This document shows positions 1,336 to 24,905 of a stretch of DNA of 34,795 nucleotides, one piece after another. Made by a program: the position numbers and the translations under genes. The notes under the pieces were generated by a model. That model ran no database searches. It was not told the origin of the DNA and saw only the letters and a list, made by a program, of their open reading frames with translations. Each line of letters opens with the position of its first letter. Within the stretch, counting starts at the first letter, position 1. This DNA is from a virus. The stretch spans positions 1 through 34,795 of the IMG/VR virus record IMGVR_UViG_3300015263_001465, one strand, 5' to 3'.

Positions 1336-2010
1336 ATGGAATTTCGATTGAAGAACCGGCAGCTCTCGATACCCGGAGGGCTGAAGTTCTCCCAGCCGGA
1401 GCTGAACTGGACGCCCCGGCCCGGGAGTTTCCACAACATCACGGGGCAGATCATGCGGGTCCGTCAGGCCAATCCGGCCCAGACCCAGAAGCACGGCTGG
1501 AGAACCGACGAGGCGGGTTGCGCCGACGATCTCGACCGATACAATGCCAAGATCTGCTACGACAACGGATGGCACAATTACATTGTGCAGCAGGGGGAAG
1601 GCGCACCCCCACTTCCCCTGCCCCGGCACAACGCCAGTCTGGTCGCAAAGCTAAGAAATGTTGTGGCCGGGGCTAGAACACTGGTGAAATGGATTGATGA
1701 CAAGGCGCAGGCGGTGGACCCCGATGAGGCCTCCCGACGCGCCGACATCTGCCTCCTCTGTCCCATGAACGCCAAGGGCGATCTCTCCCGTTACTTCACG
1801 GTGCCGGTCGCCTCCATGATCCGGGCGGCGATCAACCTTCGCCGGGAGTGGCAGCTCACGCTCCCGCAGGACGACAAGCTGGGCGTGTGCTCCGGCTGCG
1901 ACTGTCCGCTCAAGCTCAAGGTGTGGCTGCCGCCCAAGGACATCAAGGAAGGCGTCGCCGAGGCCGACAAAAACAACCTCCATCCCAACTGCTGGATCCG
2001 AACGCTATGA
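1336..2010 (+). CDS. Cysteine-cluster protein of unknown function
   Basis: This 224-residue protein is the first gene of the rightward operon. Its C-terminal third has a cysteine cluster: CLLC (C139, C142), CSGCDC (C185, C188, C190) and a final NCW (C219), followed by IRTL. The pattern looks like a structural zinc or metal site. The N-terminal part (SFHNITGQIM, then GWRTDEAG) has no feature I recognise. ATG 1336 was chosen over the in-frame ATG 1300 because 1300 lies in the divergent promoter region. Its last bases overlap the next start (ATGA). Lying directly upstream of sugar genes suggests a linked job, but no function should be assigned. Confidence 0.65.
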   Translation: MEFRLKNRQLSIPGGLKFSQPELNWTPRPGSFHNITGQIMRVRQANPAQTQKHGWRTDEAGCADDLDRYNAKICYDNGWHNYIVQQGEGAPPLPLPRHNASLVAKLRNVVAGARTLVKWIDDKAQAVDPDEASRRADICLLCPMNAKGDLSRYFTVPVASMIRAAINLRREWQLTLPQDDKLGVCSGCDCPLKLKVWLPPKDIKEGVAEADKNNLHPNCWIRTL

Positions 2011-2159
2011 AAAAGCCAAACCTGCTGGACCGAAAATCATTCCGCAAGTGGGACCTGCCCATGCAGCAGGTCCGCTACTGCCGACGCTTTGCCAGACAAG
2101 TCTGGAAGGCGCTGGGATCTCCCCGACCGTTCTTCAAGTTCGCCAAGGGTTTGAAATGA
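2007..2159 (+). CDS. Small basic protein, 50 residues
   Basis: The start overlaps the previous stop (ATGA at 2007-2010), and its own stop overlaps the next start (ATGA at 2156-2159), so it is a coupled link in the operon. The product is strongly basic, with many Lys and Arg and aromatic residues (RKSFRKW, VRYCRRFARQVW). It has no membrane segment. I do not recognise it. The two four-base overlaps are the main reason to believe it is translated. Confidence 0.5.
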   Translation: MKKPNLLDRKSFRKWDLPMQQVRYCRRFARQVWKALGSPRPFFKFAKGLK

Positions 2160-3808
2160 GCTGCTTCATGATAAAGCGCGCTCGTTCAGGCGGTGGCAAT
2201 CGGGTGGGCTCCGAACGCGGAGGGGCCTCGCTGGTGCTGCGCCGGAACGCCGCCATTGGCGACGCCGTCTGCTCGACGGTGGTGGCCGACCGGCTCATCT
2301 CGATGGGTTTCGAGATCACCATGCAAAGCCATCCCGCCTGCCATTGCGTGCTGCGGCTGCATCCCCAGCTGACCGACGTGAGGGCCCCGGGCGGCCCCGT
2401 GCACATCAATCTGGACGGCGCTTACGAAAACGATCCGCACCGGATCAAGAAGCACTTCCACACCATGTTCTTCGAGGCGGCCCAGCGCCAGCTGGGTCCG
2501 CTGGGAATCAACCTTGGGCATCCCAGCAACTGCCGACCCCTGTTGCAACATCCGAACATCAACCAGAAGCTCGCCTTCACGCAGAAGCTCTCGGCCCATC
2601 CCAAGCCGTGGGTCATGATCTGCCCCCGCAGCGACTCGTTCAACGTGCGTCAGGTGCCGGACGGAATCTGGGACGCCGCCGCCAAGAAGGTCAACGGCAC
2701 CTGTTTCTGGATTGGCCGACATCCCGGGCCGCCCAACTGCGTGGACCTGAATCTGCGCCACTTCGACAACGTGCTGCTGGCGCTCTCGGTGGCCGACCTG
2801 CTGGCCACGGTGGACACCGGCCCCCTGCACGTCGCGGCGGCCTTTGGCGTGCCCTGCGTGGCGATCAGCCAGAGCTCCTCGCCGGAGCTTCACCTCAACG
2901 ACCAGAACGATTTCATCTCCATTGCGCCCCCGCTGGACTGCCTGAACTGCCAGAAGAACCTGTGCCCCAAGAACGCGCACATTCCGCCCTGCCAGAACGT
3001 GGATCCCGACCTGATCGCCAGCTGGATCAATGCGCGGCTGCACCAGTATGTCACGGACGACGTTTCCGCCATCGTGACCATCTTCCAGCCCGAGGCCTCC
3101 GTGCTCAACAAGTGCCTGACCTGCCTGCTGCCGCAGGTGCAGGAGATCATCGTGGCGGCGGAAGGCAACTCGACCATCCCATCCGGGGCGTTGCAGAATC
3201 CCAAGATCCGCTACACCCGCACGCCGCAGCGCAAGATCGGCTATGGCCGCAACTGCAACCACGGGGCGCGTCATTCCAACGGGAAGTTCATGCTGCTGAT
3301 GAACGACGACGTGTTCCTCGACGAGCACGCGGTCGAGCGCATGATGGCGGAAATGAAGGACGCCGACGTGGGCGCGGTGTCGTGCCTGCTGCGCTATCCG
3401 AACGGAACGATTTATCATGCCGGGAAGGTCCGCAGTCCCGGCGTCAGGGGGTGGGGACACCTCGATCATCGCCAGTGGCATCCTTCATGGAAGGAGCCCT
3501 GCGATGTGGAGAACATGTGCGGGGCCACGGTCTTGGTTCGCCGGAAAGCCTTCTACGGCATCGGCGGCTTCGACGAGGACTTCTTCGTTTACGCGGAGGA
3601 CGACGACTTCATGCTGCGCCTAAGGAGGGACGGCTGGAGGTTGCGCTACACTCCGCACGCCTCCGGCATCCACATGGAGGGCCAGAGCACGAAGAAGATC
3701 GGCCAGCCGCATGAATACATCCAACACGCCAATCAGGTCTTCGACCGGAAATGGCGTGCCTATTTCGATCACAACCTGCAACGCATACCCGGAACCTTTG
3801 ACTACTGA
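2156..3808 (+). CDS. Two-domain glycosyltransferase: GT9-like plus GT2-like fusion
   Basis: The 550-residue product carries two glycosyltransferase domains. Residues about 26-290 look like family GT9 (heptosyltransferase type): an N-terminal strand LVLRRNAAIGDAV and the hallmark DTGPLHVAAAFGVPCVAI near residues 219-236. Residues about 300-520 look like GT2 (rhamnosyltransferase type): VSAIVTIFQPE, then MNDDVF near 382 as the DxD-like nucleotide-sugar site, GGFDEDFFVYAEDDDF near 470-485, and a C-terminal aromatic tail. A cysteine-rich stretch (CLNCQKNLC) joins them. GT9 enzymes usually add heptoses to lipopolysaccharide, and GT2 enzymes add many sugars. The real donor and acceptor are unknown. 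ATG 2156 was chosen for its ATGA overlap with the previous gene. Confidence 0.8.
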   Translation: MSCFMIKRARSGGGNRVGSERGGASLVLRRNAAIGDAVCSTVVADRLISMGFEITMQSHPACHCVLRLHPQLTDVRAPGGPVHINLDGAYENDPHRIKKHFHTMFFEAAQRQLGPLGINLGHPSNCRPLLQHPNINQKLAFTQKLSAHPKPWVMICPRSDSFNVRQVPDGIWDAAAKKVNGTCFWIGRHPGPPNCVDLNLRHFDNVLLALSVADLLATVDTGPLHVAAAFGVPCVAISQSSSPELHLNDQNDFISIAPPLDCLNCQKNLCPKNAHIPPCQNVDPDLIASWINARLHQYVTDDVSAIVTIFQPEASVLNKCLTCLLPQVQEIIVAAEGNSTIPSGALQNPKIRYTRTPQRKIGYGRNCNHGARHSNGKFMLLMNDDVFLDEHAVERMMAEMKDADVGAVSCLLRYPNGTIYHAGKVRSPGVRGWGHLDHRQWHPSWKEPCDVENMCGATVLVRRKAFYGIGGFDEDFFVYAEDDDFMLRLRRDGWRLRYTPHASGIHMEGQSTKKIGQPHEYIQHANQVFDRKWRAYFDHNLQRIPGTFDY

Positions 3809-4659
3809 TGAAAAGCAAAAAAGTCATCCTTTACGGATCGCGCGGCTGGCTGGGGCAGCAGATCATGGATGCCCTCGAAAGCCACGGCTATCCCACCTAT
3901 CGGGGCGACTACCGCAAGGGCCCCCGGGAACAGATGGAACAGATCTGCGACCTGCGGCCTGAGATGGTCGTCAATGCCGCCGCCTACGTGGCCCAGCCCA
4001 GCGTTCGCTACAACGACTTGGAGAAGCACCGGACGATGCAGGCCAACGGGGTCTGGCCCGCCGTCCTTGGGGCGCTCTGCCATGTGGCCAGCACGCCCCT
4101 GCTGCACATCTCCACCGGCTGCCTGTGGCGCTCCGGCATCCCCAAGAGCGAAATCGCCGAGCCCGAGCTGACGCTGGAGTGCCCGAAGGCCCTGTGCTAC
4201 ACCCAGAGCAAGGTCGTCGCCGAGATGGCCCTCTGGCCCAAGATGGAGGCGTGGTGCCTTCGGATCCGGCTGCCCTTCAACAACCGGCCCAACGACCGGA
4301 GAAACTTTCTGGTCAAGATTCAGGAATATCCCAGCATCCACGAGTGGGGGCATCCCCAGTCGCTGACGAGCGTCAAGGATCTCTGCCGCGCCATCATCGC
4401 CTTCGAGAAGAAGCGCCCTCCCTTCGGCATCTACAACTGCACCAACACGGGCGGCCTGACGTTCACCCATCTGGCAAAGCTGGTGAGGTGGTCGTGGGGT
4501 GATGAGGGCTGGAATCCCAAGATGAAGAAGATGTTCCCCCAAAGCTGCGCGGGAGAATCCCATTGCGAGCTGGACAATCTTGAAATCAGCCGATTCGTGA
4601 AAATGCCCACGGCTGAGGACGCCGTGATCGAGGCGCTGAAAAACCCGTGTTATGTCTAA
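3808..4659 (+). CDS. NAD(P)-dependent sugar epimerase/reductase, RmlD-like SDR
   Basis: The 283-residue product is an extended short-chain dehydrogenase. It shows a glycine motif YGSRGWLG near residues 9-16 for dinucleotide binding, VVNAAAYV near 53-60, HISTGCLW near 100, and YTQSK (131-135), matching the catalytic YxxxK. The closest family by look is dTDP-4-dehydrorhamnose reductase, or 4,6-dehydratase/epimerase relatives that make nucleotide sugars. The ATG shares one base with the previous stop (TGATG), so translation is coupled to the glycosyltransferase fusion. It probably supplies or modifies the sugar used by neighbouring transferases. The substrate is inferred from family and context only. 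Confidence 0.75.
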   Translation: MKSKKVILYGSRGWLGQQIMDALESHGYPTYRGDYRKGPREQMEQICDLRPEMVVNAAAYVAQPSVRYNDLEKHRTMQANGVWPAVLGALCHVASTPLLHISTGCLWRSGIPKSEIAEPELTLECPKALCYTQSKVVAEMALWPKMEAWCLRIRLPFNNRPNDRRNFLVKIQEYPSIHEWGHPQSLTSVKDLCRAIIAFEKKRPPFGIYNCTNTGGLTFTHLAKLVRWSWGDEGWNPKMKKMFPQSCAGESHCELDNLEISRFVKMPTAEDAVIEALKNPCYV

Positions 4660-6022
4660 CCTTCACATAAGACCTGTGCCGCCTGTAAATCCTGACTACA
4701 TAAACCATCACGGATTCTGGCATCGCCTTGCCTTTGAACCCCCCGAACTGTTCACCATCAACGATAACCCCGTCTGCGACGGCGGCTATCAAACCACACC
4801 CCATACCATGTATCGAACCCACACAAACTGCCGCGCTTGCGCGGGAGAAAACCTCGAACCGGCGATCAGTCTGGGCCTCCAGCCGCTGGCCAACTCTTTC
4901 CGCCATCCCAACGGGAATCACTCTGGATACGCTCCGCTGGAGGTGCTTCGCTGCAAGGAATGCGGACTGGGCCAGCTCTCCGTGGTCGTAGATCCGGGAT
5001 GGCTCTATCGCAATTATCTTTACGAGACCAGCAAGTCGGAGACGATGGTCAATCACATGAACCTGATTATCGGGATGATCCGCTCAAGGCTGCCCCTGAA
5101 CCGCGAAGCGAACGTCATTGAAATCGGCAGCAACGACGGCACCTTTCTGCGCCTGTGGAAAAGCCGGTTCCCCGACGACCGTGCTCTGGGAATCGAGCCC
5201 TCCCCCGATCTGGCAATGAGGTCCCGAAACAGCGGCATCCACACCTTGGACTTCATGTGGGACATGGATTGCGGCGAATACATATCGAAACGGTTCGACA
5301 AGCAGGACATCGTGGTGGCCCGACACGTCTTCTGCCATGTGGACAGCTGGCTGGAATTCTTTCAGGCCCTGCAAATGGTCGTTCAGGACGAGTGCCTGAT
5401 CGCCATCGAGGTGCCCTACGCCAAGCGAATGCTGGAACGGGCCGAGTATGACACCATCTACCACGAGCACCTGAGCTACCTGACCTTGCAGAGCGTCAAG
5501 GCGCTGATGGACCGGACGGACTTCGACCTTTACGGATTTGAGGAGCTCCCCATTCACGGCGGATCCGTGCTACTGTTCTTCCGTCGCAAGAACAGCGCGA
5601 TCAAGTATGAGGAAAGCGCCCTCAAGGTGGCCGCAGAATACATCCCCCTGTCTGATTGGAAGGACTGCGAAGAAAAGATGAAGCAGAACTCCCAGCTCCT
5701 GCGTCGTCGGGTGGTGGAGCTGGTCCAGCAGGGCAAGCGCGTGGCCGGTCTGGGCGCTTCCGCCAAGAGCACCGTCCAGTGCTGCCTGTCCAAGCTGGGG
5801 CCCGACCTCCTCGGCAGAATCTACGACAGCACGGTGGCCAAGATCGGGCGGTTTTCGCCTTGCGATATTCCAGTTGTGAGCGAGACTCAGCTCGCTGTGG
5901 ATATGCCGGATTATTGCGTCTGCTTTGCTTGGAACTTCCGCGAGGAGATCCTGCGAAAGAACAAGGATTACACCGACCGGGGTGGAAGATTCATCTTCCC
6001 GCCCGACGAAATCGCCCCATGA
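4652..6022 (+). CDS. Sugar C-methyltransferase (zinc-binding, SAM-dependent)
   Basis: The 456-residue product has the layout of NDP-hexose 3-C-methyltransferases: a zinc site from CRAC (C60, C63) and CKEC (about C101, C104) flanking LGLQPLANSF; a SAM motif VIEIGSNDGTFL near 155-166; EVPYAKRM near 253; YHEHLSYLTL near 270; HGGSVLLFF near 301; and a C-terminal lobe with GLGASAKSTV near 366. Such enzymes methylate carbon 3 of 4-keto deoxysugars on nucleotide carriers. About 55 residues precede the zinc domain, longer than I expect; the alternative start at 4808 would remove most of this but has no visible ribosome site. The start at 4652 overlaps the previous gene by 8 nt. Confidence 0.85.
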   Translation: MSNLHIRPVPPVNPDYINHHGFWHRLAFEPPELFTINDNPVCDGGYQTTPHTMYRTHTNCRACAGENLEPAISLGLQPLANSFRHPNGNHSGYAPLEVLRCKECGLGQLSVVVDPGWLYRNYLYETSKSETMVNHMNLIIGMIRSRLPLNREANVIEIGSNDGTFLRLWKSRFPDDRALGIEPSPDLAMRSRNSGIHTLDFMWDMDCGEYISKRFDKQDIVVARHVFCHVDSWLEFFQALQMVVQDECLIAIEVPYAKRMLERAEYDTIYHEHLSYLTLQSVKALMDRTDFDLYGFEELPIHGGSVLLFFRRKNSAIKYEESALKVAAEYIPLSDWKDCEEKMKQNSQLLRRRVVELVQQGKRVAGLGASAKSTVQCCLSKLGPDLLGRIYDSTVAKIGRFSPCDIPVVSETQLAVDMPDYCVCFAWNFREEILRKNKDYTDRGGRFIFPPDEIAP

Positions 6023-6023
6023 T

Positions 6024-6791
6024 ATGCCAACCCTTGGAGGAGCCATCTGTGTCCGCAACGGCAACCAGCTCGACTTCTGCTGGAAGGAGGCGGTTGCCAG
6101 CCTGCTGCCGGTATGCGACGAGGTCCTTTTGTGTGTCGGCACTGGAAACGAGGACGGCACGGAAGAGGAGGCGAGAGCCCTGTGGGCCGCCGATCCCAAG
6201 ATCAACCTCTGCATGTATCCGTGGCCCGAGCCCAAGGGCGACGCCGACTTCTGGGTCAAGTGGCTCAACTACGCCCGGGAGCATTTGAAATCCGAATGGC
6301 ATTTACAACTGGATGCCGACGAAATACTGTATGAAAAAGGCTATGACGAAATCAGGCGCTTCATTGAGAAGCCCAACCGATCCGCGATCTTCACGCGCTG
6401 GAACTTCTGGCGCGACCACCGGCACACCATCCCGCAGGGATTCTGCTGCGCCAAGCATGTCATCCGGCTCGCCCCCGCCCCCCTCTGGATGGCTTCGGAC
6501 GGGTATCATCCGATGGGGTCCGGTGTGGCTTCGATTGCGGAAGGCACTGGCATTGAAATCTTCCACTACGGTTTCATCCGAAAGCGAGAGGCCTTCTTTG
6601 ACAAGGAGCGGAAGCTGCAAAACTACTTCTTCAACACCTACGACGAGCGCCTCGCAAGGGCTGAAAGCTACCAAGGAAACTGGATGCAGATGCCGGAAGT
6701 CACCGGCTGGGAGGCGGCACTCGACGACTACAACGGCCCCCACCCCCAAGCGGCCCACCCATGGCTGAAAGAAAGAGGATATGAGCCCTGA
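6024..6791 (+). CDS. Family 2 glycosyltransferase
   Basis: This 255-residue protein starts one base after the previous stop. It begins with a GT2-type strand (GGAICVRNGNQLDFCWKEA), has a VLLCVGTGNEDGTEE segment where GT2 enzymes read the nucleotide, and LDADE at about 96-100 as the metal-binding DxD. The C-terminal half is rich in aromatic residues and has an HYGFIRKRE stretch like those in the LPS-core type GT2 group. It is probably cytoplasmic, with no membrane segment. Acceptor and donor are unknown; the island around it suggests a methylated deoxysugar. Confidence 0.7.
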   Translation: MPTLGGAICVRNGNQLDFCWKEAVASLLPVCDEVLLCVGTGNEDGTEEEARALWAADPKINLCMYPWPEPKGDADFWVKWLNYAREHLKSEWHLQLDADEILYEKGYDEIRRFIEKPNRSAIFTRWNFWRDHRHTIPQGFCCAKHVIRLAPAPLWMASDGYHPMGSGVASIAEGTGIEIFHYGFIRKREAFFDKERKLQNYFFNTYDERLARAESYQGNWMQMPEVTGWEAALDDYNGPHPQAAHPWLKERGYEP

Positions 6792-7326
6792 AGCACTGGT
6801 TGAAAAATGGAAGCACCTTTTTCAACTCAACACCATCCCGACGTGGACCGAGCCTTGGAATCTGGCCTTCTGCGCCGAACAGGCTGAGCACGCCCGTTTC
6901 GGCGTGGAGATCGGCACCTACATGGGCGCGAGCGCGAACATGATGATGCTGTCCAATCCCCATCTGCACCTCTGGTGCGTGGACAAGTTTTCCCTGATCT
7001 TCGGGCTGGAGTGGGTCTGCCGACAGAAGACCCTGAACCCGTGGATTGATTCGGGCTCGCTGGAGCTCATTGACGGCGACTCGGCCAAGGGCGGCGAGAT
7101 GCTCCAGCACATGAAGGGCAGGCTGGACTTCGTCTTTGTGGACGACGGCCATGCCACCGAGGACGTAAAGCGCGACATCAAGTGGTTCTACCCGCTGCTC
7201 AAAAAGGGCGGCGTGATGTTCGGGCACGATTGGGAGGGCGACAACGATGTGGCTCAGGGGGTAAAGCAGAGCGGGATTCCCTACGACATCCCCGTCCCGC
7301 GCATGTGGAGATCCATCAAATTATGA
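6781..7326 (+). CDS. SAM-dependent methyltransferase (Methyltransf_24-like)
   Basis: The 181-residue product shows a class I methyltransferase core: motif I VEIGTYMGASANM near residues 40-52, LWCVDKF as the motif II acidic strand, LDFVFVDDGH near 116-125 and a final GGVMFGHDW. This set is typical of the small Methyltransf_24 group, which often sits among glycosyltransferases and modifies sugars or peptides. It overlaps the previous gene by 11 nt and ends in ATGA with the SSB gene. The substrate is not visible; O-methylation of a glycan is the most likely guess. Confidence 0.75.
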   Translation: MSPEALVEKWKHLFQLNTIPTWTEPWNLAFCAEQAEHARFGVEIGTYMGASANMMMLSNPHLHLWCVDKFSLIFGLEWVCRQKTLNPWIDSGSLELIDGDSAKGGEMLQHMKGRLDFVFVDDGHATEDVKRDIKWFYPLLKKGGVMFGHDWEGDNDVAQGVKQSGIPYDIPVPRMWRSIKL

Positions 7327-7754
7327 ACATCAACAAAGTGACACTGGCGGGAAGATTGACCCGCGACCCGGAGCTCAAATACCTCCCCAACGGAACCCCA
7401 GTCGCCCGGATCTGCGTGGCGATCAACAAGAAGTGGCAGACCAAGGACGGCGAGAAGAAGGAAAGCACGCTGTTCGTGGACGTGGACGCTTGGCGCAAGA
7501 ATGCCGAGCACCTCTCACAGTATTTCTCCAAGGGCAGCGACATTTATCTTGAGGGAGCCCTCAAGCTGGACACATGGGAGGACAAGCAGACCAAGCAGCC
7601 CCGCCAGAAGATGGGCGTCATCTTGGAGTCCTTCCAGTTCGTGGGCAAGGCCGTCAAGCGCGACCAGCCCCCCTCCAAACCTGAATCCGCCCCCGCCGAC
7701 GACGGTCAGCCCGAGCTGCCTGCGAGCGAAAAGGGTGACGACATTCCCTTCTAA
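7323..7754 (+). CDS. ssb: Single-stranded DNA-binding protein (SSB)
   Basis: The 143-residue product is a bacterial-type SSB. The OB fold begins MNINKVTLAGRLTRDPELKY, continues with VARICVAINKKW and the TLFVDVDAW strand, and ends near residue 110. A Pro/Ser/Asp-rich linker follows, then the acidic tip DDIPF, which in SSBs recruits replication and repair proteins. The conserved tip suggests it can contact host or phage SSB partners. It is unusual in lying inside a sugar-modification operon, with four-base or shorter overlaps on both sides (ATGA at 7323, TAATG at 7754), so it is co-transcribed with those genes. Confidence 0.93.
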   Translation: MNINKVTLAGRLTRDPELKYLPNGTPVARICVAINKKWQTKDGEKKESTLFVDVDAWRKNAEHLSQYFSKGSDIYLEGALKLDTWEDKQTKQPRQKMGVILESFQFVGKAVKRDQPPSKPESAPADDGQPELPASEKGDDIPF

Positions 7755-8491
7755 TGAACATCTCCGTCTCATACCCCATTCCCACTGACAACTGGGAGAC
7801 GTTCGAGCCGGACGTGATCCGGTTCGCCCGATCCCTTCACCAGTTCGCCCCGGGCCGCGAGGCCGATGTGACCTTCAGGTCGTGCGTGGACAAGGGCGGC
7901 TACTACAACTCCATGCGTCAGGGATTTCTGCTGGGTCTGTTTGACGGATTCAAGATCATCACCGAGCGATATGACGGGGGTGGGTGCGACATCGGAGCCC
8001 ACCTCCACATCGCCGACATGGCGGGAGACGATTTCCTGATCTGTCTCTCGACCCGAGTTTACGCATACAGGGCCGGATGGATAGAAGCCCTCGCCCACGC
8101 CCGTGAAGAGCTGGGACCGGGGCTCTATGGAACGGCCATCTCCTTTGAAAACAATCCCCACATTCGGACGCATTGCTTCGGCATTGACGCCCGAATGCTG
8201 CGGGAGTATCCGCATCGGGTCAACACCCGGGAGCGCGGCTACTTCTTTGAGAGCGGGGTGGGCAACCCTGAAGGCTCCTTCTATAACTGGTGCTGCGGCC
8301 ATTTCATCCCGTGCCGGATCGTGCACTGGGACGGAGTCTATGAGTTTGAACCCGCCGCACAGGTTCACAACCGCTTCCGGCACGGGGACCAGTCCAACCT
8401 GCTGGTTTTCGACCGGCACACCAAGCTCTGGGAGGATTCCGAGCCCGAGGAGCGCAACCGCCTGACCGACCTGACCTATGGGCACGCCTGA
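7754..8491 (+). CDS. Glycosyltransferase-like protein, family uncertain
   Basis: The 245-residue product starts with a strand (MNISVSYPIPTDNW) and carries YDGGGCDIGAHLHIADMAGDDFLICLSTRVY in its middle, which reads like the nucleotide-sugar region of a GT-A fold: an acidic stretch before a FLICLSTR strand, with the protein at the edge of recognition. The C-terminal half is rich in Tyr, Trp and His and has two Cys (WCCGHF). It overlaps the next gene by 14 nt. Its place between SSB and an FkbM methyltransferase supports a sugar-related role, but this is a context guess; it could be another small-molecule transferase. Confidence 0.5.
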   Translation: MNISVSYPIPTDNWETFEPDVIRFARSLHQFAPGREADVTFRSCVDKGGYYNSMRQGFLLGLFDGFKIITERYDGGGCDIGAHLHIADMAGDDFLICLSTRVYAYRAGWIEALAHAREELGPGLYGTAISFENNPHIRTHCFGIDARMLREYPHRVNTRERGYFFESGVGNPEGSFYNWCCGHFIPCRIVHWDGVYEFEPAAQVHNRFRHGDQSNLLVFDRHTKLWEDSEPEERNRLTDLTYGHA

Positions 8492-9086
8492 TTTTTACTC
8501 ACAATTCGGGGAAGATCGCTGGATCACCGAGAATCTGATCCTGCCCCGGAACGGATTCTTCGTTGACATCGGCGCTTATGACGGGATCGCCTCGTCGAAT
8601 ACGCTTCACTTCGAGAAGCTGGGCTGGGACGGGTTCTGCGTGGAAGCGGTGCCCGAGCTGGCGCTGGAAAGCGCACAAAATCGCGAATGTCCCCTTTTCT
8701 GCTGCGCGGCGGCAGGCACGGATTCTCTGGACGCCTTCTTCTACATCCACGAAAACGACCGGGGGCGCTCCGGCCTGACCTCCATCGGCAGGGCCATCAA
8801 AACCCGCAAGCGCACCCTTCGCGAGCTCATGAAGCATTTCAACCGGAGGGAGATTGATCTTCTGTCCATTGACACGGAGGGGACGGAGCTGGATGTTTGG
8901 CGGGGGGCTTGGCCCTATCGTCCATCCGTGGTTGTCATCGAATACCTGACATGGGGCAGCCCCCCAAGAGACAAGGAAATCGTTGAGTCCATGCTTGAAT
9001 CCGGCTACTGGGAAGTCCACCGGACGGAGGCCAACCTCATCATGATCTGTCACTCATGCCTTGAAAAAAACCTGAAAGGAGGGTAG
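8478..9086 (+). CDS. FkbM-family methyltransferase
   Basis: The 202-residue product matches the FkbM (Methyltransf_21) pattern: an N-terminal YSQFGEDRW, SAM motif FFVDIGAYDGIASSNT near residues 27-42, CVEAVPE as the second strand, and IDLLSIDTEGTELDVW near 125-140. FkbM enzymes O-methylate sugars and polyketides, and are common in glycan clusters and in phages. It is the last gene of the sugar operon; its stop at 9084-9086 lies within the presumed -10 of the portal gene promoter. The acceptor is unknown, presumably the sugar made by the upstream genes. Confidence 0.85.
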   Translation: MGTPDFYSQFGEDRWITENLILPRNGFFVDIGAYDGIASSNTLHFEKLGWDGFCVEAVPELALESAQNRECPLFCCAAAGTDSLDAFFYIHENDRGRSGLTSIGRAIKTRKRTLRELMKHFNRREIDLLSIDTEGTELDVWRGAWPYRPSVVVIEYLTWGSPPRDKEIVESMLESGYWEVHRTEANLIMICHSCLEKNLKGG

Positions 9087-9094: not shown

Positions 9095-11464
9095 ATGGAT
9101 TTTAATGACGCCCTTGCGCTGGATAACATTGTTTACCAGATGCGCCTTGCCGATTACCCTCGCGGACTCAACCGCGCAAGGATCAACGACCTCATGAACG
9201 GCCTTCCGCCCTACTCGGTGGAGGAACAGAATGAGAACGAGATCGAGGTCAACGTCAACGAGTTATCGGGGCCGGTGGCCGCGCACGACGCAAGGAGCCA
9301 GTTCTACAACGCCTTCCTGAAGCCGGGGAACTTTTTCACCCTGACCACCGACTCCGGCCCAAGGCACTATCGCGCCGACTACGGGCATATCGTGACCAAG
9401 CACATGAATCGCATCATGAAGCGGTCCATGCCCTACATCGAGAGCTTCCGCTCCAAGCTGGCGCTGGATGTTTTGCATGGCATCGCCCCGGCCTGCTGGC
9501 GGGACGAGTATGCGTGGTGCCCCGAATCCGTGGGCGTCGAGGATGTGATGATCCCGGCCAACACGCTGCTGACCATGCAGAACCTGCCCCTGTTCGCCGT
9601 CTATCGCCAGTTCACCGCCCGGGAGTTGATCCGGCTGACCCGGGGCCCCCGGCGCGACCGCGCATGGAACATGGATCTGGTGGATGCCTGCATTCGCTGG
9701 GTGGACTCTCAGGCCCTCAAGATGATGGGCACCAACTGGCCGCAGATCTGGTCTCCCGAAAAGCAGGCCGAGCGCATCAAGGGCGACGGCGGCTTCTACA
9801 TTGGCGATCAGGTGCCGACCGTGGACTGCTGGGACATTTACTTCTGGAATGACAGCAAGAACCATCAGGGATGGTGCCGACGGATGATCCTCGACGCTTG
9901 GAGCCAGCCCGTGGTGGATGGCTCGATTGGTCAGGAAGTCCAGATGGCCAGACGCAAGGGCGCTCCCCACGAGAAGCCGTTCGACAACCAGTTCCTCTAC
10001 AACTCCGAGAACCGCGTCTTCGCTCAGGAGCTGAGCAATATCATCACTTGGCAGTTTGCCGACCTGTCGGCGGTCGCCCCCTTCCGGTATCACAGTGTCC
10101 GATCCCTTGGCTTCCTGCTTTACTCGGTGTGCCATCTTCAGAACCGTCTTTACAGCAAGTTCACCGAGGCCCAGTTCGAGCAAATGATGATGTATTTCCG
10201 GGTCAAGAGCGCCGACGACATGCAGCGGGCCCTGAGGGTGGATCTGGTCAACCGGGGATTCATTGACGACACGATCCAGTTCATCCCAGCCGCCGAGCGG
10301 TATCAGATCAATGAGCGGCTCATCGAGGCCGGAATCAACCTGAACCGGGAGATCATCGGTCGCAATTCCTCCTCCTTCAACGGCCAGCCCCCGCAGCAGG
10401 ACAAGCGCGAGCTCACGGCGACGCAGTGGATGGGTGAGGCCAACAAGGTCACAGCCTTGGTTTCCTCAGCCCTCAATCAGGCTTACATCTACCAGAACGC
10501 CGAGTATAACGAGATCGTCCGGCGCTTCATGAAGAAGAACTCCAAGTGCCCGGATGTGCTTAAATTTCAGGCCAACTGTATGCGGGATGGAGTCCCCTCC
10601 AAGCTCCTGTTCTGTGCCGAAGCATGGGAAAGCGAGCCGGAGCGGGTGATGGGAGCCGGTAACAAAACGCTGGAGATGGCCATCGCCGACCGGCTGCTGG
10701 GCGCTCGCAACCTGTTTGATCCCGAACCGCAGCGGCAGATCCTGCGCGACTGGACGCTTTCGATCACCGACGATCCGGCCCGGGCCGAGTCGCTCGTGCC
10801 CCGACAGCCCCAGATCAGCGACAGCATCCTCGCCGCCTCGTTCGCGGCGGGAACGCTCATGGACGGCATGGAGGTGCCGGTCAAGAGCGGAATCAACCAC
10901 GTCGAGTGGGTGGAGACGCTGCTGGCGGCAATGGCCACGAAGATCAAGCAGATCCACGAGCGGGATGGCATGGGCGAGATGGAGGAGCTTCAGGGCTTGC
11001 AGAACATGGCCCAGCACATCGGCCAGCAGATCGCCAAGATCGCGGAGGATCCCAATGAGAAGCAGCGCGTCAAGAAGTATGGCGACCAGCTCAAAGGCCT
11101 CATGAACCTCGTCAAGGCGTTCTCGCAGAGGCTGATGGAGAAGCTGCAATCCGAACAGCAGCAGGGCGGAATGAGCCCGGAGGTTCAGGCCAAGATCGCC
11201 AACGACCGCATGATGATGGAGGCCAAGGCCGCCAACACCCGCGAGTCGCACGCGCAGCGCACGGCCCAGCGCCAGATCCAGTTCGAGATGAAGGCCAAGC
11301 AGGATGCCGACAAGGCCCAGCAGGACCTGAACGTCAAGGCGGCTCAGGCCGGTCAGGAGCTGGATACCCAGCGCCAGAAGGCCGAGATCGAGCTCCAGAA
11401 GGAGCGACAGAAGGCGGAAACGGCTGCGGCCAAACCAGCGGAGAGCGCCGGTGGAAAAGAATAA
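9095..11464 (+). CDS. Putative portal protein
   Basis: The 789-residue product is the right size and place for a portal ring subunit, ahead of a scaffold-like protein and capsid gene. The N-terminus (NRARINDLMNGLPPYS, then NVNELSGPVAAHDARSQFYN) and the KRSMPYIESFRSKLALDVLHG region resemble portal-like proteins of environmental phages with no tailed-tube genes. The last 170 residues are Gln/Lys/Ala/Glu-rich and predicted to be coiled coil (QQGGMSPEVQAKIAND onward), as for the portal barrel or scaffold-contact region. A GGAGGG ribosome site lies 11 nt before the ATG. The call rests on context and partial family recall; a large adaptor is the main alternative. Confidence 0.65.
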   Translation: MDFNDALALDNIVYQMRLADYPRGLNRARINDLMNGLPPYSVEEQNENEIEVNVNELSGPVAAHDARSQFYNAFLKPGNFFTLTTDSGPRHYRADYGHIVTKHMNRIMKRSMPYIESFRSKLALDVLHGIAPACWRDEYAWCPESVGVEDVMIPANTLLTMQNLPLFAVYRQFTARELIRLTRGPRRDRAWNMDLVDACIRWVDSQALKMMGTNWPQIWSPEKQAERIKGDGGFYIGDQVPTVDCWDIYFWNDSKNHQGWCRRMILDAWSQPVVDGSIGQEVQMARRKGAPHEKPFDNQFLYNSENRVFAQELSNIITWQFADLSAVAPFRYHSVRSLGFLLYSVCHLQNRLYSKFTEAQFEQMMMYFRVKSADDMQRALRVDLVNRGFIDDTIQFIPAAERYQINERLIEAGINLNREIIGRNSSSFNGQPPQQDKRELTATQWMGEANKVTALVSSALNQAYIYQNAEYNEIVRRFMKKNSKCPDVLKFQANCMRDGVPSKLLFCAEAWESEPERVMGAGNKTLEMAIADRLLGARNLFDPEPQRQILRDWTLSITDDPARAESLVPRQPQISDSILAASFAAGTLMDGMEVPVKSGINHVEWVETLLAAMATKIKQIHERDGMGEMEELQGLQNMAQHIGQQIAKIAEDPNEKQRVKKYGDQLKGLMNLVKAFSQRLMEKLQSEQQQGGMSPEVQAKIANDRMMMEAKAANTRESHAQRTAQRQIQFEMKAKQDADKAQQDLNVKAAQAGQELDTQRQKAEIELQKERQKAETAAAKPAESAGGKE

Positions 11465-15348: not shown

Positions 15349-15594
15349 ATGACCGCCGCCGAAGTGCAAACCGCTCTTTCCGAGGTCAACTGTTACAGCT
15401 GTCTTGGCCTGACCATCGGCCAACTGTTGAAGCTGTCCTACCTGAGGACGTGGCTGCTGACGCTTGACTCAACCGCCGACGTGTCGCTGGCCAACATCAT
15501 GTCTCAAGGGGACTGCCTAGCCTGTTACGGGCTAAGCCTGTTCGAGATCATGGAGATCGTCCTGCTGGATATGATTATTGCCGTGACCACATGA
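15349..15594 (+). CDS. Cys-module protein with two CxxC(L/Y)G units
   Basis: The 81-residue product consists of two copies of one unit. The first has NCYSCLGLTIGQLLKLSYL and the second DCLACYGLSLFEIMEIVLL, each a CxxC followed by L or Y and G, then a leucine-rich helix. The same unit opens three other genes in this region (15591, 16559, 18391). The two CxxC pairs could bind one zinc, but the single-copy relatives argue against a need for it. The start overlaps nothing; the end overlaps the next gene (ATGA). Role unknown; a shared docking module is the best guess. Confidence 0.65.
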   Translation: MTAAEVQTALSEVNCYSCLGLTIGQLLKLSYLRTWLLTLDSTADVSLANIMSQGDCLACYGLSLFEIMEIVLLDMIIAVTT

Positions 15595-16562
15595 TAACCA
15601 CTGATGACATCAAATCCCTCCTCAATGGAGTTCGATGCTACGCCTGCCTTGGCATTTCCATGCCGAAGCTTGTGGAGTTGGCGCTCTATCGAGATTGGCT
15701 GTTGAGCGTCTATCCCAGCGCAGACACATCGCTGGCTGCGTTGACCGAAAATGGAAAGTGTCTGGCGTGTTACGGAATGAAGGCGTTCGACGTGCTGAGG
15801 CTTTCCCTGCTCAGCGAGATCTCCTTCTGGCTCTCCACCTCCGGTCAGACCGTTCTGGCGTTCCTTTCCGCAACCGGCATCACCGACTCCACGCAGGTTT
15901 CCGCCATTAGAAATCTGGTCACTTCGGCGGTTGACCACGGCTGGTGGGACAAGTGCGACCTGATCTATCCGTTTGTCGGTGGAAACGCGACGGCTCATAG
16001 CATCAACTTGAAATCCCCCGGCGACTTCACCATCACTTGGAATGGCACCGTCACGCATGATGCCAACGGGATCACGGGTGACGGGGCAACCGGCTACGGT
16101 AACACGCATTATATTCCAAGAACATCCGGGCAAATCACTCAGAACTCAGGCCACGTTTCCCACTATTTAAGGACAAAAGGAACTATTTTGATGTGGTATT
16201 GCGGGGCTGCGCTTCTTATAGGGACAAGAAACGGAACGGGCACAACTCAGGTTCGGACGATGGTCAACGATGGGAATCTCAGCACCTTCAACAATGTTGG
16301 GTTGGGCCTTATGATGGCAGCACGAACCGACGGATCCACGAAACGGAACTACTACACCACAGAACAAACGGCGGCAAATCTTTCCAGCCTAGTCGGCAAT
16401 TCAGAATTTTACGTGCTGGACATGAACGCGGGTGGTGGGCCGCACATGACAAATGCCAACCTTGCCAGTTTAACTGTTGGAATCGGGATGACCTTTTCTG
16501 AATATCAAGCCTTCGCCGCTGACTGGCAGACCTTCCAAACTGCATTGGGGAGGCAGATATGA
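15591..16562 (+). CDS. Cys-module protein with LamG-like C-terminal domain (putative adhesin)
   Basis: The 323-residue product starts with two Cys units, RCYACLGISMPKLVELALY and KCLACYGMKAFDVLRLSLL, as in the previous gene. The remainder, from about residue 120 (DLIYPFVGGNATAHSINL, then GITGDGATGYGNTHY) to the final TFQTALGRQI, reads like the LamG/jelly-roll modules common in phage tail-associated adhesins. The likely role is host binding at the virion surface, with the N-terminal Cys module as anchor. It has ATGA overlaps at both ends. The adhesin call is inference; the domain boundaries are approximate. Confidence 0.6.
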   Translation: MITTDDIKSLLNGVRCYACLGISMPKLVELALYRDWLLSVYPSADTSLAALTENGKCLACYGMKAFDVLRLSLLSEISFWLSTSGQTVLAFLSATGITDSTQVSAIRNLVTSAVDHGWWDKCDLIYPFVGGNATAHSINLKSPGDFTITWNGTVTHDANGITGDGATGYGNTHYIPRTSGQITQNSGHVSHYLRTKGTILMWYCGAALLIGTRNGTGTTQVRTMVNDGNLSTFNNVGLGLMMAARTDGSTKRNYYTTEQTAANLSSLVGNSEFYVLDMNAGGGPHMTNANLASLTVGIGMTFSEYQAFAADWQTFQTALGRQI

Positions 16563-16927
16563 CCAAGCAGGAGCTCCAGCAAATCCTTTCCGATGCCAGC
16601 TGTCTGGCTTGCTTCGGCATGTTCTCGCTGGCCGAGACCATCACGATCAGTCAGGTTCAGAACATCGCCACCAACGGCGTGACGTTCAACGCCGCGCTGT
16701 GCGCCGTGACCGCCTTTGCGGACGGAGGGGGAACCACCTTTGAGTGCTATGACGTGGGCAGCTACGACACGTCCATGCCGCTGGCAGGAACCCTGTTCAC
16801 CGCCCTGTATGTGGGCAACAACCCGTCGCTCATTGGTGACACCTTCGAGGACTACTCCGTGGGCGCATACGCCGGAGGGACTCCCGGATCCAGTGTGACG
16901 GGATATGGAACCATTTACGTATCATGA
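16559..16927 (+). CDS. Cys-module protein with short internal repeat
   Basis: The 122-residue product has one N-terminal Cys unit, SCLACFGMFSLAETITI, followed by a Gly/Thr-rich region with an internal near-repeat: TFECYDVGSYDTSMPLAG and TFEDYSVGAYAGGTPGSS. Such short beta repeats are typical of fibre-like or spike-like proteins. ATGA overlaps link it to both neighbours. No enzyme motif is seen. It is probably a small tail-associated or head-decoration protein, but this is uncertain. Confidence 0.55.
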   Translation: MTKQELQQILSDASCLACFGMFSLAETITISQVQNIATNGVTFNAALCAVTAFADGGGTTFECYDVGSYDTSMPLAGTLFTALYVGNNPSLIGDTFEDYSVGAYAGGTPGSSVTGYGTIYVS

Positions 16928-17625
16928 GTGTTGAAATCGTCAGCATCGGAGACAAGCGACTTGCGATCAGCAACGACGCATGGGCCGCCTCTCTGGATGT
17001 GGGCACCGGCTGGAACCGGATCAGGATCGGATGGCGCTGGGCTGTCAACGACACCGGGGCCAACCTCGCCGCCCTTCAGGCCTACATGGGCGTCCTGTCC
17101 AACCCCACTGCCGGACTAGCGGAATCCCCCTTGCTGGCCACCTGCACGCACTACGTCGGAAGCTACCGGATCGGGACGGCCGCCCGGACTGCTGGGCCAC
17201 CGACCTACTACGTTCCATCCTTCCGGGTCTGCAAAAAGGTGGGAGCGACCATCACTTCAGCCATCCCCGGAGTGACCGCCACCTTTCTTTCCGCCTCCCC
17301 CAGCACGATCAACACGGTTCACATCACCGAGATTGTGAAGGGAGCGCCGAACTACACGATCAACCATCTCTTCGCCCGTGGCTCAGCGGCCTTGGTGGAC
17401 ATCGCCGACTTGGCCCCCTTGACGAACACCCTGTTGGGTCCGGTGCCGTTCATCGAGACAGGGCTCAACGCTTACATCGGCGGGGCCGGGACTCGCTATT
17501 CCACCACCGGGGCCTCTGTTGCCGTGGATGAGGGTGTGGATGGAGCCCTCAATGCCGTGACCGTGGCTTGGGAGGAAACCAGCGCGATCAACTTCAAAGA
17601 AATCCTTGTCGCCATCGTCACATGA
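16924..17625 (+). CDS. Hypothetical structural protein, paralogue A
   Basis: The 233-residue product is clearly related to the next gene product. Both share WNRIRIGWRWAVND (WSNIRIGWRWAADD in B), a YMG-L-x-x-P segment, and GTRYSTTGASVAVDEG (GTRYSNSSASLAVNQV in B). The sequence is beta-rich, Gly/Thr/Ala-rich and without cysteines beyond a few. It has no signal peptide or membrane segment. It overlaps its neighbours by ATGA on both sides. The lack of Cys module and its beta content fit a virion surface or fibre component, but no family is recognised. Confidence 0.55.
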   Translation: MSVEIVSIGDKRLAISNDAWAASLDVGTGWNRIRIGWRWAVNDTGANLAALQAYMGVLSNPTAGLAESPLLATCTHYVGSYRIGTAARTAGPPTYYVPSFRVCKKVGATITSAIPGVTATFLSASPSTINTVHITEIVKGAPNYTINHLFARGSAALVDIADLAPLTNTLLGPVPFIETGLNAYIGGAGTRYSTTGASVAVDEGVDGALNAVTVAWEETSAINFKEILVAIVT

Positions 17626-18347
17626 GCACCTCCATCGTAGATCTTCCCATGCCGTTTGAGCCTCAGGAAAAGAGGCTGAGTCAGAGCAATTCCCAGTGGG
17701 CGGCGAAGCTGGATCTCGGAGCGTCATGGAGCAATATCCGCATTGGCTGGCGGTGGGCCGCCGATGACTTCAACGCCCTCAATCTGTGGGATACCCAGTG
17801 CTACATGGGCCTGATGACGACTCCCGACTCCGGGATCACCAACGGCCCGCTGTCGTGGCAGACCGAGCACTTTGTTGGAATTCGGCGATTCAATTACAAC
17901 GTTTACACGGTTGCCGCAACCCCCTACTGGTCCACGTCTTGGAACATGTCCAAGAAGATCGGGACGACCATCACCAACTCGGCCCCGGCCATTTCCACAG
18001 CCCTGTTCTCGACTGATCCGTCCTCAGTCAGGACGATTCACATCATTGATTTTCAGGTTGTGGGTCCGCTTATCACCGTCTCCCACGTCACTTGCGAGGG
18101 GGTCAGCGGGTTTCTGGACATCGAGGAGAGGTCTGTGTTGGAGGATGCTATGAACGAAGCCACCGTGGCTTTGGCCACTGCGTCTATAAACACCTACATC
18201 GGTGGAGGTGGAACAAGGTATTCCAACTCATCGGCTTCCCTCGCTGTAAATCAGGTCGCCGACGGAGCCTTAAACACATTTGTGGCCGGATGGCCTCTGG
18301 TTCAAAACCTATACCTGTCCGAGGTTTTGTTCCGAAAGCTATCCTGA
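17622..18347 (+). CDS. Hypothetical structural protein, paralogue B
   Basis: The 241-residue product is the second copy of the preceding protein, matching it over most of its length with a longer N-terminus (about ten residues) and many substitutions. Two adjacent paralogues suggest duplication followed by divergence, as for receptor-binding variants or heteromeric fibres. The start ATG 17622 was chosen for its ATGA overlap. Twenty-some residues at the N-terminus differ most. No enzyme motif is seen. Confidence 0.55.
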   Translation: MSTSIVDLPMPFEPQEKRLSQSNSQWAAKLDLGASWSNIRIGWRWAADDFNALNLWDTQCYMGLMTTPDSGITNGPLSWQTEHFVGIRRFNYNVYTVAATPYWSTSWNMSKKIGTTITNSAPAISTALFSTDPSSVRTIHIIDFQVVGPLITVSHVTCEGVSGFLDIEERSVLEDAMNEATVALATASINTYIGGGGTRYSNSSASLAVNQVADGALNTFVAGWPLVQNLYLSEVLFRKLS

Positions 18348-22820: not shown

Positions 22821-23023
22821 TGAAACCACTCTCAGCCGACTTCCCCTCCGTGGTCGTTGACCAGAGCGCCCAGACTCTTCAGGAGCTCATGTCCGACTGG
22901 CCCAAGTCACACTGCCAGCTGACCCGTTTTGCCAACGAGCAGATTCAGGCAGGCAGATGGGAGCGCGTTGCCAAGCGCATCAAGGGAAGGCTGACCCCGG
23001 CCTACCGAAGGGTCAAGCGTTGA
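22820..23023 (+). CDS. Small basic protein, hypothetical
   Basis: The 67-residue product is coupled to the exonuclease gene (TGATG overlap). It is basic at the C-terminus (RVAKRIKGRLTPAYRRVKR), consistent with nucleic-acid binding. No domain is recognised. Its end overlaps the 3' end of the convergent terminase by 11 bp, and the following hairpin probably terminates this rightward operon. Confidence 0.5.
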   Translation: MKPLSADFPSVVVDQSAQTLQELMSDWPKSHCQLTRFANEQIQAGRWERVAKRIKGRLTPAYRRVKR

Positions 23024-24905
23024 AATTCAGAGACCCGGAGGCGTGAAGCTTCCGGGCTCTTTCAATCAGTTCGGTCTTCCAGCGTTCGTGCACAATCCGG
23101 TTATCTTCCTTTCGGGCTCGCTTGATGACGAACCCGCGCTGGAGCGCCCCGTGACAGCCTATGGCCACGGCATCGGCCAAGTCGGGAGACTTCCCGCACT
23201 TCTCCTTCATCTCCTCCTTGGTCTCGACTGAGATCTTGTTTCCCATCGTGGTCTTCCATTCCCGCTGGGCAAACTCATTGCAGACCGAGAAGGTCATGCC
23301 CCGGAACTGGCCCGACTCCACGATCAGCCTGACGGTGAACCAGATCTCGGTGATCTTGCGGTCGTAGTATTCCCGGCAGGTCTTCTGAATATCAGCGGAG
23401 ACCCAGTTCTCGGACGGCCTGCCGCCGCAGTCAATCGAGTTCACCATCGGGCTCCACAGGCGCGAGAAGGACGTGACCAGAGAGGTTCTCATGCCGGAGT
23501 CGAAGAAGAAGTTCTGGGGTGGAATCTCCCGGCGATCACACTGTTCCTTCACGAATTGGACGATCTGGTCCTCAGGGGATGTGGCCGCCCGATCCCCTTT
23601 GACCGGGATGATTAGAACGTCAACCAGATGCAGGATCATCCTGCCATCCGAGTTGCCGGAGTCCCGATAGACCAGCCCGGAGCTGTCCACCGCCTTGGCC
23701 TCCTGAGAGGCCTCAAAGCCAAAGACCAGCTCTCCAAAGACGCAGCGATCCCCGCCCACTCCCCGGTAGGCCGCGTCCAGAAAGGCGATGGACGTGCGCC
23801 TGCTGTCCCGCCACAGGGGACGCTCGAAGGCGTCGAACTGCTTGGCCATCTGGTGGGTGATGACGCGACGGCTGCCCTGCCCTCTGGGCATCCGGGCCTC
23901 ATTCATCATGGTGTAGTGCCAGTCATCCACTCCCCATATCTCGGCATCGTTCTTCATCTGCTGCATGGTGATGAGGAACGGGAACGGAGGCTCGACATCC
24001 TCCGGGGCGTTCTTGTTGGGCGTATCGCTCCCGGGCAGCTGCAAGGCGATTCCGTTGGGAAACTTGGTCTTCCATGTCTTCGTTCCCGGCTGCTGGTCTA
24101 TGCCGGAGTCCCATCCCCCAAGGTCGGGGTGAGGCTCGCAGAGGACGCCGTGGGCGTTGGTCGTCTCGTTGGGATTGCCTAGACCGACGAACTTGAAGTC
24201 TTCGCACTTGGACAGGTTGGAGATGGAGTCGAGAAACCCACGGGGCATGAGGTTCATTTCATCCCCGATCAGGCGCACGCGAGTGTTGTGAATCCCGATG
24301 TAGGACCCCAGCCCGACGAACTGGCTTCCCCGCTTGCAGGCCACGGCGATGATCCCGTTCTTGAAGTCGCGCCCCTCCGAGGCCTCTTCCCTTGGATCAA
24401 GCACCAGCATCTGCTTGCCCTCAATGAGATGCCCCGGCAGGCTTGGGCACTTCTCCTTGGCCAGCTTGTGATACTTCTTGACCATGCCCCAGATGCGGAG
24501 CTCAAGGGATTTCAGGTCGGTGGAGGAGACGAGGACGGTCGTCCCCTTGGATCGGGCATACCATTCGGTCAGGGCGATGCTGCCAAAGCTGTCGCTCTTG
24601 CCGCTTCCCGCGCAGCCCATGACGCCCAGATAAGTGTGGTTGATCCAATTCTCAAGGCAGGCCTCGGCCCAGTGATTCTTGAAGGGTCCGCTTTCCCATA
24701 GCCTTCCGGGCCAGACGATCTCCTGAAACCTGCGGTAATGGAAGAACAGCCCCTTGCCAGCTTCCTCTCCGTTGGACTTCGTCCACTTCCCACCCTTGGC
24801 GATCATGGTGAGCTCTATTAACCAATCTGGCGAATCTTTCATCCACTGGAGGTTGTATCGCTCAAACTGTCCGGTGGATTTCTTGGACGGCTTACTGTAA
24901 TACAT
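23013..24905 (-). CDS. terL: Terminase large subunit
   Basis: The 630-residue product has a packaging ATPase: Walker A GCAGSGKS (97-104) and Walker B VRLIGDEMN with D215 and E216. The C-terminal RNase H-like nuclease shows SIAFLDAAYRG (D377), FFFDSGMRTS (D469) and PDLADAV (D575, D578). It cuts and pumps DNA into the head through the portal. The frame is open further upstream, but ATG 24905 is preferred because upstream codons overlap the divergent gene; no clear Shine-Dalgarno site precedes it. Being on the opposite strand from the head and tail genes is unusual. No small terminase subunit is recognised in the window. Confidence 0.88.
   Translation of the reverse strand: MYYSKPSKKSTGQFERYNLQWMKDSPDWLIELTMIAKGGKWTKSNGEEAGKGLFFHYRRFQEIVWPGRLWESGPFKNHWAEACLENWINHTYLGVMGCAGSGKSDSFGSIALTEWYARSKGTTVLVSSTDLKSLELRIWGMVKKYHKLAKEKCPSLPGHLIEGKQMLVLDPREEASEGRDFKNGIIAVACKRGSQFVGLGSYIGIHNTRVRLIGDEMNLMPRGFLDSISNLSKCEDFKFVGLGNPNETTNAHGVLCEPHPDLGGWDSGIDQQPGTKTWKTKFPNGIALQLPGSDTPNKNAPEDVEPPFPFLITMQQMKNDAEIWGVDDWHYTMMNEARMPRGQGSRRVITHQMAKQFDAFERPLWRDSRRTSIAFLDAAYRGVGGDRCVFGELVFGFEASQEAKAVDSSGLVYRDSGNSDGRMILHLVDVLIIPVKGDRAATSPEDQIVQFVKEQCDRREIPPQNFFFDSGMRTSLVTSFSRLWSPMVNSIDCGGRPSENWVSADIQKTCREYYDRKITEIWFTVRLIVESGQFRGMTFSVCNEFAQREWKTTMGNKISVETKEEMKEKCGKSPDLADAVAIGCHGALQRGFVIKRARKEDNRIVHERWKTELIERARKLHASGSLNFNA
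23030..23062 (+). terminator. Probable rightward terminator inside the terminase 3' end
   Basis: GAG-A-CCCGGA (23030-23039) pairs with TCCGGGCTC (23051-23059), a 9-bp stem with one bulged A and an 11-nt loop, followed by TTTC. It begins 7 nt after the last rightward gene and lies within the coding end of the opposite-strand terminase. Confidence 0.55.

Follow-up and report, generated by a model that had tools for sequence, protein, structure and literature searches.

Exchanged sugar-enzyme cassettes in a fixed slot beside the putative structural genes of an undescribed phage group

What might a phage make with a compact island of sugar-modifying genes at the head of its structural operon, and where would the product go: onto the particle, the host surface or the phage DNA? 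The question is raised by IMG/VR virus record IMGVR_UViG_3300015263_001465, whose 34,795 bases were analysed at full length and are referred to here as the window. Eight overlapping or abutting genes within 2156–9086, all on the plus strand and spaced at −14 to +1 nt, encode glycosyltransferases, a sugar reductase, methyltransferases and a single-stranded-DNA-binding protein (SSB). The main new result is that this island fills a fixed slot, flanked by two anchor genes, in which sugar cassettes are exchanged between the phages of one group.

Results

A conserved slot with exchanged cargo

The slot lies between homologues of the genes at 1336–2010 (left anchor) and 9095–11464 (right anchor), and was found in 29 loci, the window included. 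It measures 2643–8532 bp with a median of 4376 bp; the locus L055 adds a thirtieth example. The genes of the window's slot and its anchors are as follows.

1336–2010, plus strand: left anchor, conserved phage protein of 224 amino acids, whose homologues occupy this position in the 29 loci
2007–2159, plus strand: basic open reading frame (ORF) of 50 amino acids bridging anchor and island, with a 4-nt overlap with each neighbour; ninth coupled gene
2156–3808, plus strand: fusion glycosyltransferase of 550 amino acids, GT9 (heptosyltransferase-like) plus GT2, with a cysteine-rich linker (PF01075, PF00535)
3808–4659, plus strand: short-chain dehydrogenase/reductase (SDR), a sugar reductase nearest to bifunctional 3,5-epimerase/4-reductases (PF04321; 4qqr, 7jid)
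4652–6022, plus strand: predicted nucleoside diphosphate (NDP)-sugar 3-C-methyltransferase of TylC3 type (PF08421, PF13489, PF08484; 4rv9)
6024–6791, plus strand: GT2-like glycosyltransferase with a weak family match (PF13704, below cut-off)
6781–7326, plus strand: S-adenosylmethionine (SAM) methyltransferase, Methyltransf_24 (PF13578)
7323–7754, plus strand: SSB (PF00436, TIGR00621)
7754–8491, plus strand: glycosyltransferase of predicted GT-A fold, from a family that has no Pfam model (AlphaFold2 model)
8478–9086, plus strand: FkbM-family methyltransferase (PF05050, TIGR01444)
9095–11464, plus strand: right anchor, putative portal protein of 789 amino acids, named from gene order and size

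The first-pass annotation of this DNA had described nine coupled genes. The coupling holds, and the interval 2156–9086 contains eight genes; the ninth is the 50-residue ORF, which overlaps by 4 nt at both ends, its ATG with the preceding stop and its stop with the following ATG. Only 8 nt separate the last island gene from the right anchor. The same annotation had called the island larger than usual, which is only mildly true: at 7.1 kb the window's slot ranks 27th of 29 in a range of 2.6–8.5 kb.

Because the record is classed linear, the window is a fragment. Its large terminase is 100% identical in two further metagenome records, which are pieces of the same phage, and a search with this terminase gave eleven loci. 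An alignment of four right-anchor sequences gave 46 loci, many of them in records of 54–59 kb, with the 46 relatives of this protein at 47–59% identity. IMG/VR scans that used the right-anchor protein or the methyltransferase singly as query returned zero matches, and tblastn among 50,697 annotated phage records found no recognisable relative of the two main structural proteins. The phage belongs to an undescribed group with genomes of roughly 54–59 kb. All the relatives are uncultured contigs, and their genes were taken from a simple purpose-written caller checked by ORF listing; the slot gene counts are lower bounds.

Called genes in the slots lie on the operon strand in 138 of 141 cases. 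The cargo families include GT2-like, GT-A-like and PLOD-type glycosyltransferases, Methyltransf_24, TylF and FkbM methyltransferases, radical SAM and SPASM proteins and a polysaccharide pyruvyl transferase, with HNH nucleases and one C5 DNA methylase in addition. All 24 Methyltransf_24 matches and all four FkbM matches in 27 records (1.5 Mb, the records being related rather than independent) fall in the 7.5 kb that precede the right anchor, on its strand. In the window, six of the eight island genes have slot homologues in relatives, at 40–64% identity. This recurrence, with the SDR and SSB as clear family members, suggests that the island exceeds chance.

Two pairs of phages illustrate the swapping of cassettes. 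The DNA of L052 and L058 is 88–90% identical as far as the left anchor, and this identity resumes at the right anchor, the cargo between being unrelated. L048 and L071 share about 77% identity in the left-anchor gene and onward from the right anchor; the match restarts some 50 nt ahead of that anchor, and the cargo between is largely different. On the right-anchor tree the gene for the GT9-GT2 fusion occupies four tips and needs four changes, the maximum. The record of L055 carries six of the eight window island genes, lacking SSB and FkbM, in a different order. Related phages thus do not keep the island in one order, a point the first-pass annotation had left to be checked; content is swapped between them, and the group seems to exchange whole sugar-decoration programmes. 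An island absent from relatives, or with host-like flanks, could have been a chance insertion. Instead, sugar cassettes occupy the same place in the relatives, and the island's GC content and its GC content at third codon positions resemble those of the flanking genes.

Some associations persist through this exchange. Four slots hold both the SDR and the 3-C-methyltransferase gene (the window, L055, L071 and L092); in each the two are adjacent and in the same order, at varying positions within the slot. The GT2-like and Methyltransf_24 genes lie side by side in the window, L053 and L095, and have one gene between them in L055. That both associations persist speaks for selected functional modules and against chance cargo.

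Two nuclease-type ORFs abut the right-anchor gene. The one at L052:9150–10004 is an HNH nuclease by Pfam and that at L061:9357–10004 is HNH-like by eye; in both, the first residues mimic the start of the right-anchor gene (MKFETA..., MNF.N...), and they look like homing insertions at its 5′ end. The C5 cytosine DNA methylase lies at L044:8475–9308.

The slot might instead be chiefly a landing site for mobile genes, through HNH-driven homing and recombination, with the glycan genes as weakly selected cargo. HNH nucleases occur in the slots of L035, L044 and L052 and probably others, including the two next to the right anchor; cassette replacement is clean, and one relative encodes RecT. Against this stand intact coupled frames conserved at 40–64% identity, a non-random cargo strongly biased to glycan and methyl transfer, and an SDR–methyltransferase pair that survives rearrangement, and we regard this explanation as improbable.

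Enzymes of the island

Most of the families proposed by the first-pass annotation were borne out: two glycosyltransferase domains in one protein, a glycosyltransferase-like protein, an SDR of the RmlD superfamily, a sugar C-methyltransferase and two methyltransferases. Its further GT2 stood in part, and its gene list lacked the SSB.

Both domains of the fusion exceed their Pfam cut-offs (GT9, PF01075, 26.4 over 22 bits; GT2, PF00535, 52.8 over 23.3 bits). Relatives occur in eight IMG/VR records, two of which carry the GT9 part alone, and in four phages the NDD and EDD motifs are invariant, as are four cysteines of the linker.

The SDR belongs to the RmlD superfamily (PF04321, 49.8 over 27 bits) but fails the RmlD equivalog TIGR01214 (47.3 against 224.05 bits), so RmlD proper does not apply. 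Its nearest structure in the PDB is the 3,5-epimerase/4-reductase 4qqr (6.2e-19), followed by the mimivirus UDP-L-rhamnose synthase 7jid (5e-9). The residues aligned with C115, Y144, K148 and K183 of 4qqr are kept and are invariant in three phages. The protein thus has the YxxxK motif together with the cysteine and lysine at the C115 and K183 positions, which we take to be role-bearing residues of bifunctional 3,5-epimerase/4-reductases (NRS/ER, UDP-L-rhamnose synthase). Its closest assignment would therefore be to these bifunctional enzymes rather than to RmlD proper.

The product of 4652–6022 has the full TylC3 layout, an N-terminal zinc domain with invariant zinc-type cysteines, a SAM domain and a C-terminal Methyltransf_14 domain, each matched above cut-off (PF08421, 51.9; PF13489, 63.2; PF08484, 98 bits). 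Its nearest PDB entry is 4rv9, the D-mycarose 3-C-methyltransferase TylC3 (4.9e-64), with which the segment DTIYHEHLSY, containing the catalytic YHEH, aligns identically. The closest assignment is a TylC3-type NDP-sugar 3-C-methyltransferase, with predicted activity on a dTDP (thymidine diphosphate)-4-keto sugar.

The GT2-like protein misses the Pfam cut-off (PF13704, 20.5 against 27.5 bits, E 0.0007), and homologues 46–47% identical lie beside the same neighbours in L053 and L055. The Methyltransf_24 protein (PF13578, 51.3 bits, above cut-off) is 55% identical to a protein encoded next to the same GT2-like gene in L053, and 54% to those of L055 and L091. The last gene encodes an FkbM methyltransferase (PF05050, 53.9 over 22.7 bits; TIGR01444, 43.3 over 37.7 bits).

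The product of 7754–8491 matches no Pfam family and has 17 homologues in 13 loci. A confident AlphaFold2 model built from the 17 homologues (pLDDT 89.4) predicts a GT-A fold: the best Foldseek E value was 1.3e-6, and by VIA the model aligns with the rhamnosyltransferase RmlT over 190 residues with a Z score of 14.6 and a root-mean-square deviation of 4.2. By the same measure 981 of 998 aligned chains reach a Z score of at least 8.

The SSB is unambiguous (PF00436, 9e-31; TIGR00621, 127.8 over 53.95 bits) and complete, with the acidic tail DDIPF, although it lies within a sugar island. No homologue was found in the slots of other loci; SSB is present in four of 33 other records, always outside the slot.

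Predicted sugar pathway

The enzymes for a branched or methylated deoxysugar, as originally proposed, are present, but the pathway is partial and needs dTDP-sugar genes of the host or further ones of the phage. The island had also been called more complete than usual, yet it falls short of a whole sugar pathway: none of 15 records has a nucleotidyltransferase, and a 4,6-dehydratase is missing from the window and from the record of L055. The record of L071 does encode a dTDP-glucose 4,6-dehydratase (388.1 bits against an NCBI equivalog cut-off of 365.1), immediately upstream of its left anchor and on the other strand, and its slot holds the same SDR–methyltransferase pair.

A published in-silico scheme for virenose proceeds from dTDP-4-keto-6-deoxyglucose, the product of this dehydratase, through 3-C-methylation to 4-ketoreduction (PMC3539893). 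By analogy, host RmlA and RmlB (a phage RmlB in one relative) would supply dTDP-4-keto-6-deoxyglucose, the phage 3-C-methyltransferase would place a methyl group on C3, and the epimerase/reductase-type SDR would reduce C4, possibly after epimerisation, to give a dTDP-3-C-methyl-6-deoxyhexose. The fusion, the GT2-like protein and the GT-A protein would then assemble a short glycan containing the methylated sugar, which the Methyltransf_24 and FkbM enzymes may O-methylate. A 3-C-methyl-6-deoxyhexose from host precursors is thus the product we infer, the order of steps being that of the scheme.

Target of the glycan

The island had been assigned to a phage late region, and it does stand at the start of a rightward, presumably late, operon. 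That it adjoins the putative portal gene so closely and opens the structural operon suggests late expression. Scans for sigma-70 promoters and terminators showed no excess over shuffles. None of the island proteins has a membrane-type hydrophobic segment (Kyte-Doolittle maximum over 19 residues at most 1.56), so that the island encodes no flippase or membrane-bound Gtr-type enzyme; nor is there a GtrA or GtrB family match. Within the 34.8 kb fragment it therefore lacks the flippase and membrane-spanning glycosyltransferase of a Gtr-type O-antigen conversion cluster. No island protein matches a PHROG tail family, and tail fibre genes of the pelagimyophage type are absent from the island.

As the enzymes are soluble and co-translated just before structural genes, a virion protein is the likeliest acceptor. 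We propose that a late, cytosolic cassette in a glycan slot makes a 3-C-methyl-6-deoxyhexose from host dTDP-4-keto-6-deoxyglucose and attaches it to a virion protein, and put the probability of this reading at about one half. There is precedent in the glycosylation of phage capsids and tail tubes by phage glycosyltransferases (PMC12363180). The benefit would be an altered or shielded particle surface, and frequency-dependent selection would account for the swapping of whole cassettes.

Several points weigh against this proposal. Working from the cytosolic side, the enzymes might just as well modify host lipid-linked glycans, and GT9 enzymes are typical of lipopolysaccharide (LPS) core synthesis. 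Substrate, product and acceptor are all deduced rather than observed, and the portal and capsid names are putative. The SSB is ill-suited to a sugar cassette; HNH nucleases and a DNA methylase mean that the slot is not purely devoted to glycans; and the window is probably a fragment of a 55–59 kb genome.

The same enzymes might instead modify the host envelope late in infection (LPS core, O-chain or capsule precursors), excluding rival phages or freeing progeny from debris. The resemblance of the GT9 domain to LPS heptosyltransferases is weakly in keeping with this, and the pyruvyl-transferase-like protein and mosaic sugar enzymes of the relatives resemble polysaccharide loci. The authors who described glycosyltransferase islands among the structural genes of pelagimyophages (PMC7029224) and a glycosyltransferase near the portal and capsid genes of ‘Gratiaviridae’ (PMC8008677) favoured this reading. 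The island's place ahead of the structural genes, suggestive of late expression, and soluble enzymes with no flippase or membrane-bound Gtr-type partners tilt the balance slightly towards a virion protein. Host-envelope modification is a serious contender at somewhat below even odds.

Phage DNA had been suggested as a third target, the sugar blocking restriction. Phage glycosyltransferases acting on DNA are well known, and both the SSB and the C5 methylase of one relative's slot fit such a role. This target is disfavoured because thymidylate synthase/hydroxymethylase homologues (PF00303) were found in none of the 28 virus records of the group, most of them full length; the late genome position also speaks against it, and we know of no FkbM or TylC3-type enzyme that modifies DNA. 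We consider it very improbable.

A PLOD-type phage glycosyltransferase occurs in the slot at L037:7394–8077 (PF25342, 4.8e-23). The collagen-like acceptor that it brought to mind was not found in eleven records, and three relatives holding this gene (G031, G033, G038) likewise showed no collagen-like protein.

Neighbouring genes and host

In the left-anchor protein C139, C142, C185, C188, C190 and C219 are invariant in 25 sequences and C74 is present in at least 90%; its model is mostly helical and has no fold match in the PDB. Profile searches with the putative portal and capsid, both named from gene order and size, gave no PDB or PHROG match. A GroES-like co-chaperonin lies at 675–1043 on the minus strand, with weak NCBIfam matches below cut-off; relatives carry its homologue in the same position. 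The large terminase gene (23013–24905, minus strand) sits amid rightward structural genes, as it does in the relatives. Downstream of the putative capsid gene are tandem paralogues (15349–16927 and 16924–18347) with N-terminal domains about 39% alike, and near them two neighbours about 36% alike.

Relatives of the putative major capsid protein, sought as a clue to the host, came down to a single contig in a metagenome-assembled genome of Pedosphaera, with no further match in 388 genomes of its phylum. This one contig gives a weak hint of a host in the Verrucomicrobiota.

Discussion

The arrangement recalls the host recognition cluster of pelagimyophages and cyanomyophages, a hypervariable island, rich in glycosyltransferases and deoxysugar enzymes, among the structural genes of phages that are syntenic elsewhere. 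That cluster, in T4-like myophages, spans about 34–45 kb and includes tail fibres (PMC7029224), whereas the present slot spans 2.6–8.5 kb, has no recognised tail gene and is fixed between one anchor and the putative portal. Mycobacteriophages Che8, Corndog and Myrna likewise encode glycosyltransferases for which a virion protein is the proposed target; they reportedly have one or two such enzymes, and the modification is reported to be chemically demonstrated (Freeman 2023, cited in PMC12363180). The cassette described here, in contrast, is multi-enzyme, with predicted sugar-making and methylating steps.

The glycosylation clusters of Megavirinae also combine virus-encoded nucleotide-sugar enzymes, many glycosyltransferases, a methyltransferase and a pyruvyltransferase, and give clade-specific glycans on the particle; those are giant eukaryotic viruses with full sugar pathways, and ours is a double-stranded DNA phage dependent on host precursors (PMC10117803). 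The virenose/mycarose branch shares a TylC3-type 3-C-methyltransferase and a ketoreductase acting on dTDP-4-keto-6-deoxy sugars, but belongs to bacterial antibiotic or LPS pathways, whereas here the final two steps lie in a phage cassette (PMC3539893).

A bolder extension of our proposal is that the slot serves interchangeable virion-glycan programmes, as a phage counterpart of the giant-virus clusters, and that the window's programme places a 3-C-methyl branched deoxysugar on the particle; this is tentative and on balance doubtful. To our knowledge such sugars are familiar only from antibiotics and some bacterial envelopes.

Phage glycosyltransferases usually turn up singly and without context. 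In this group dozens of cassettes can be compared on closely related backbones, so that the choice between particle, host surface and DNA can be put to a direct test. Should the target prove to be the particle, some phages would alter their surface chemistry by swapping whole blocks of genes.

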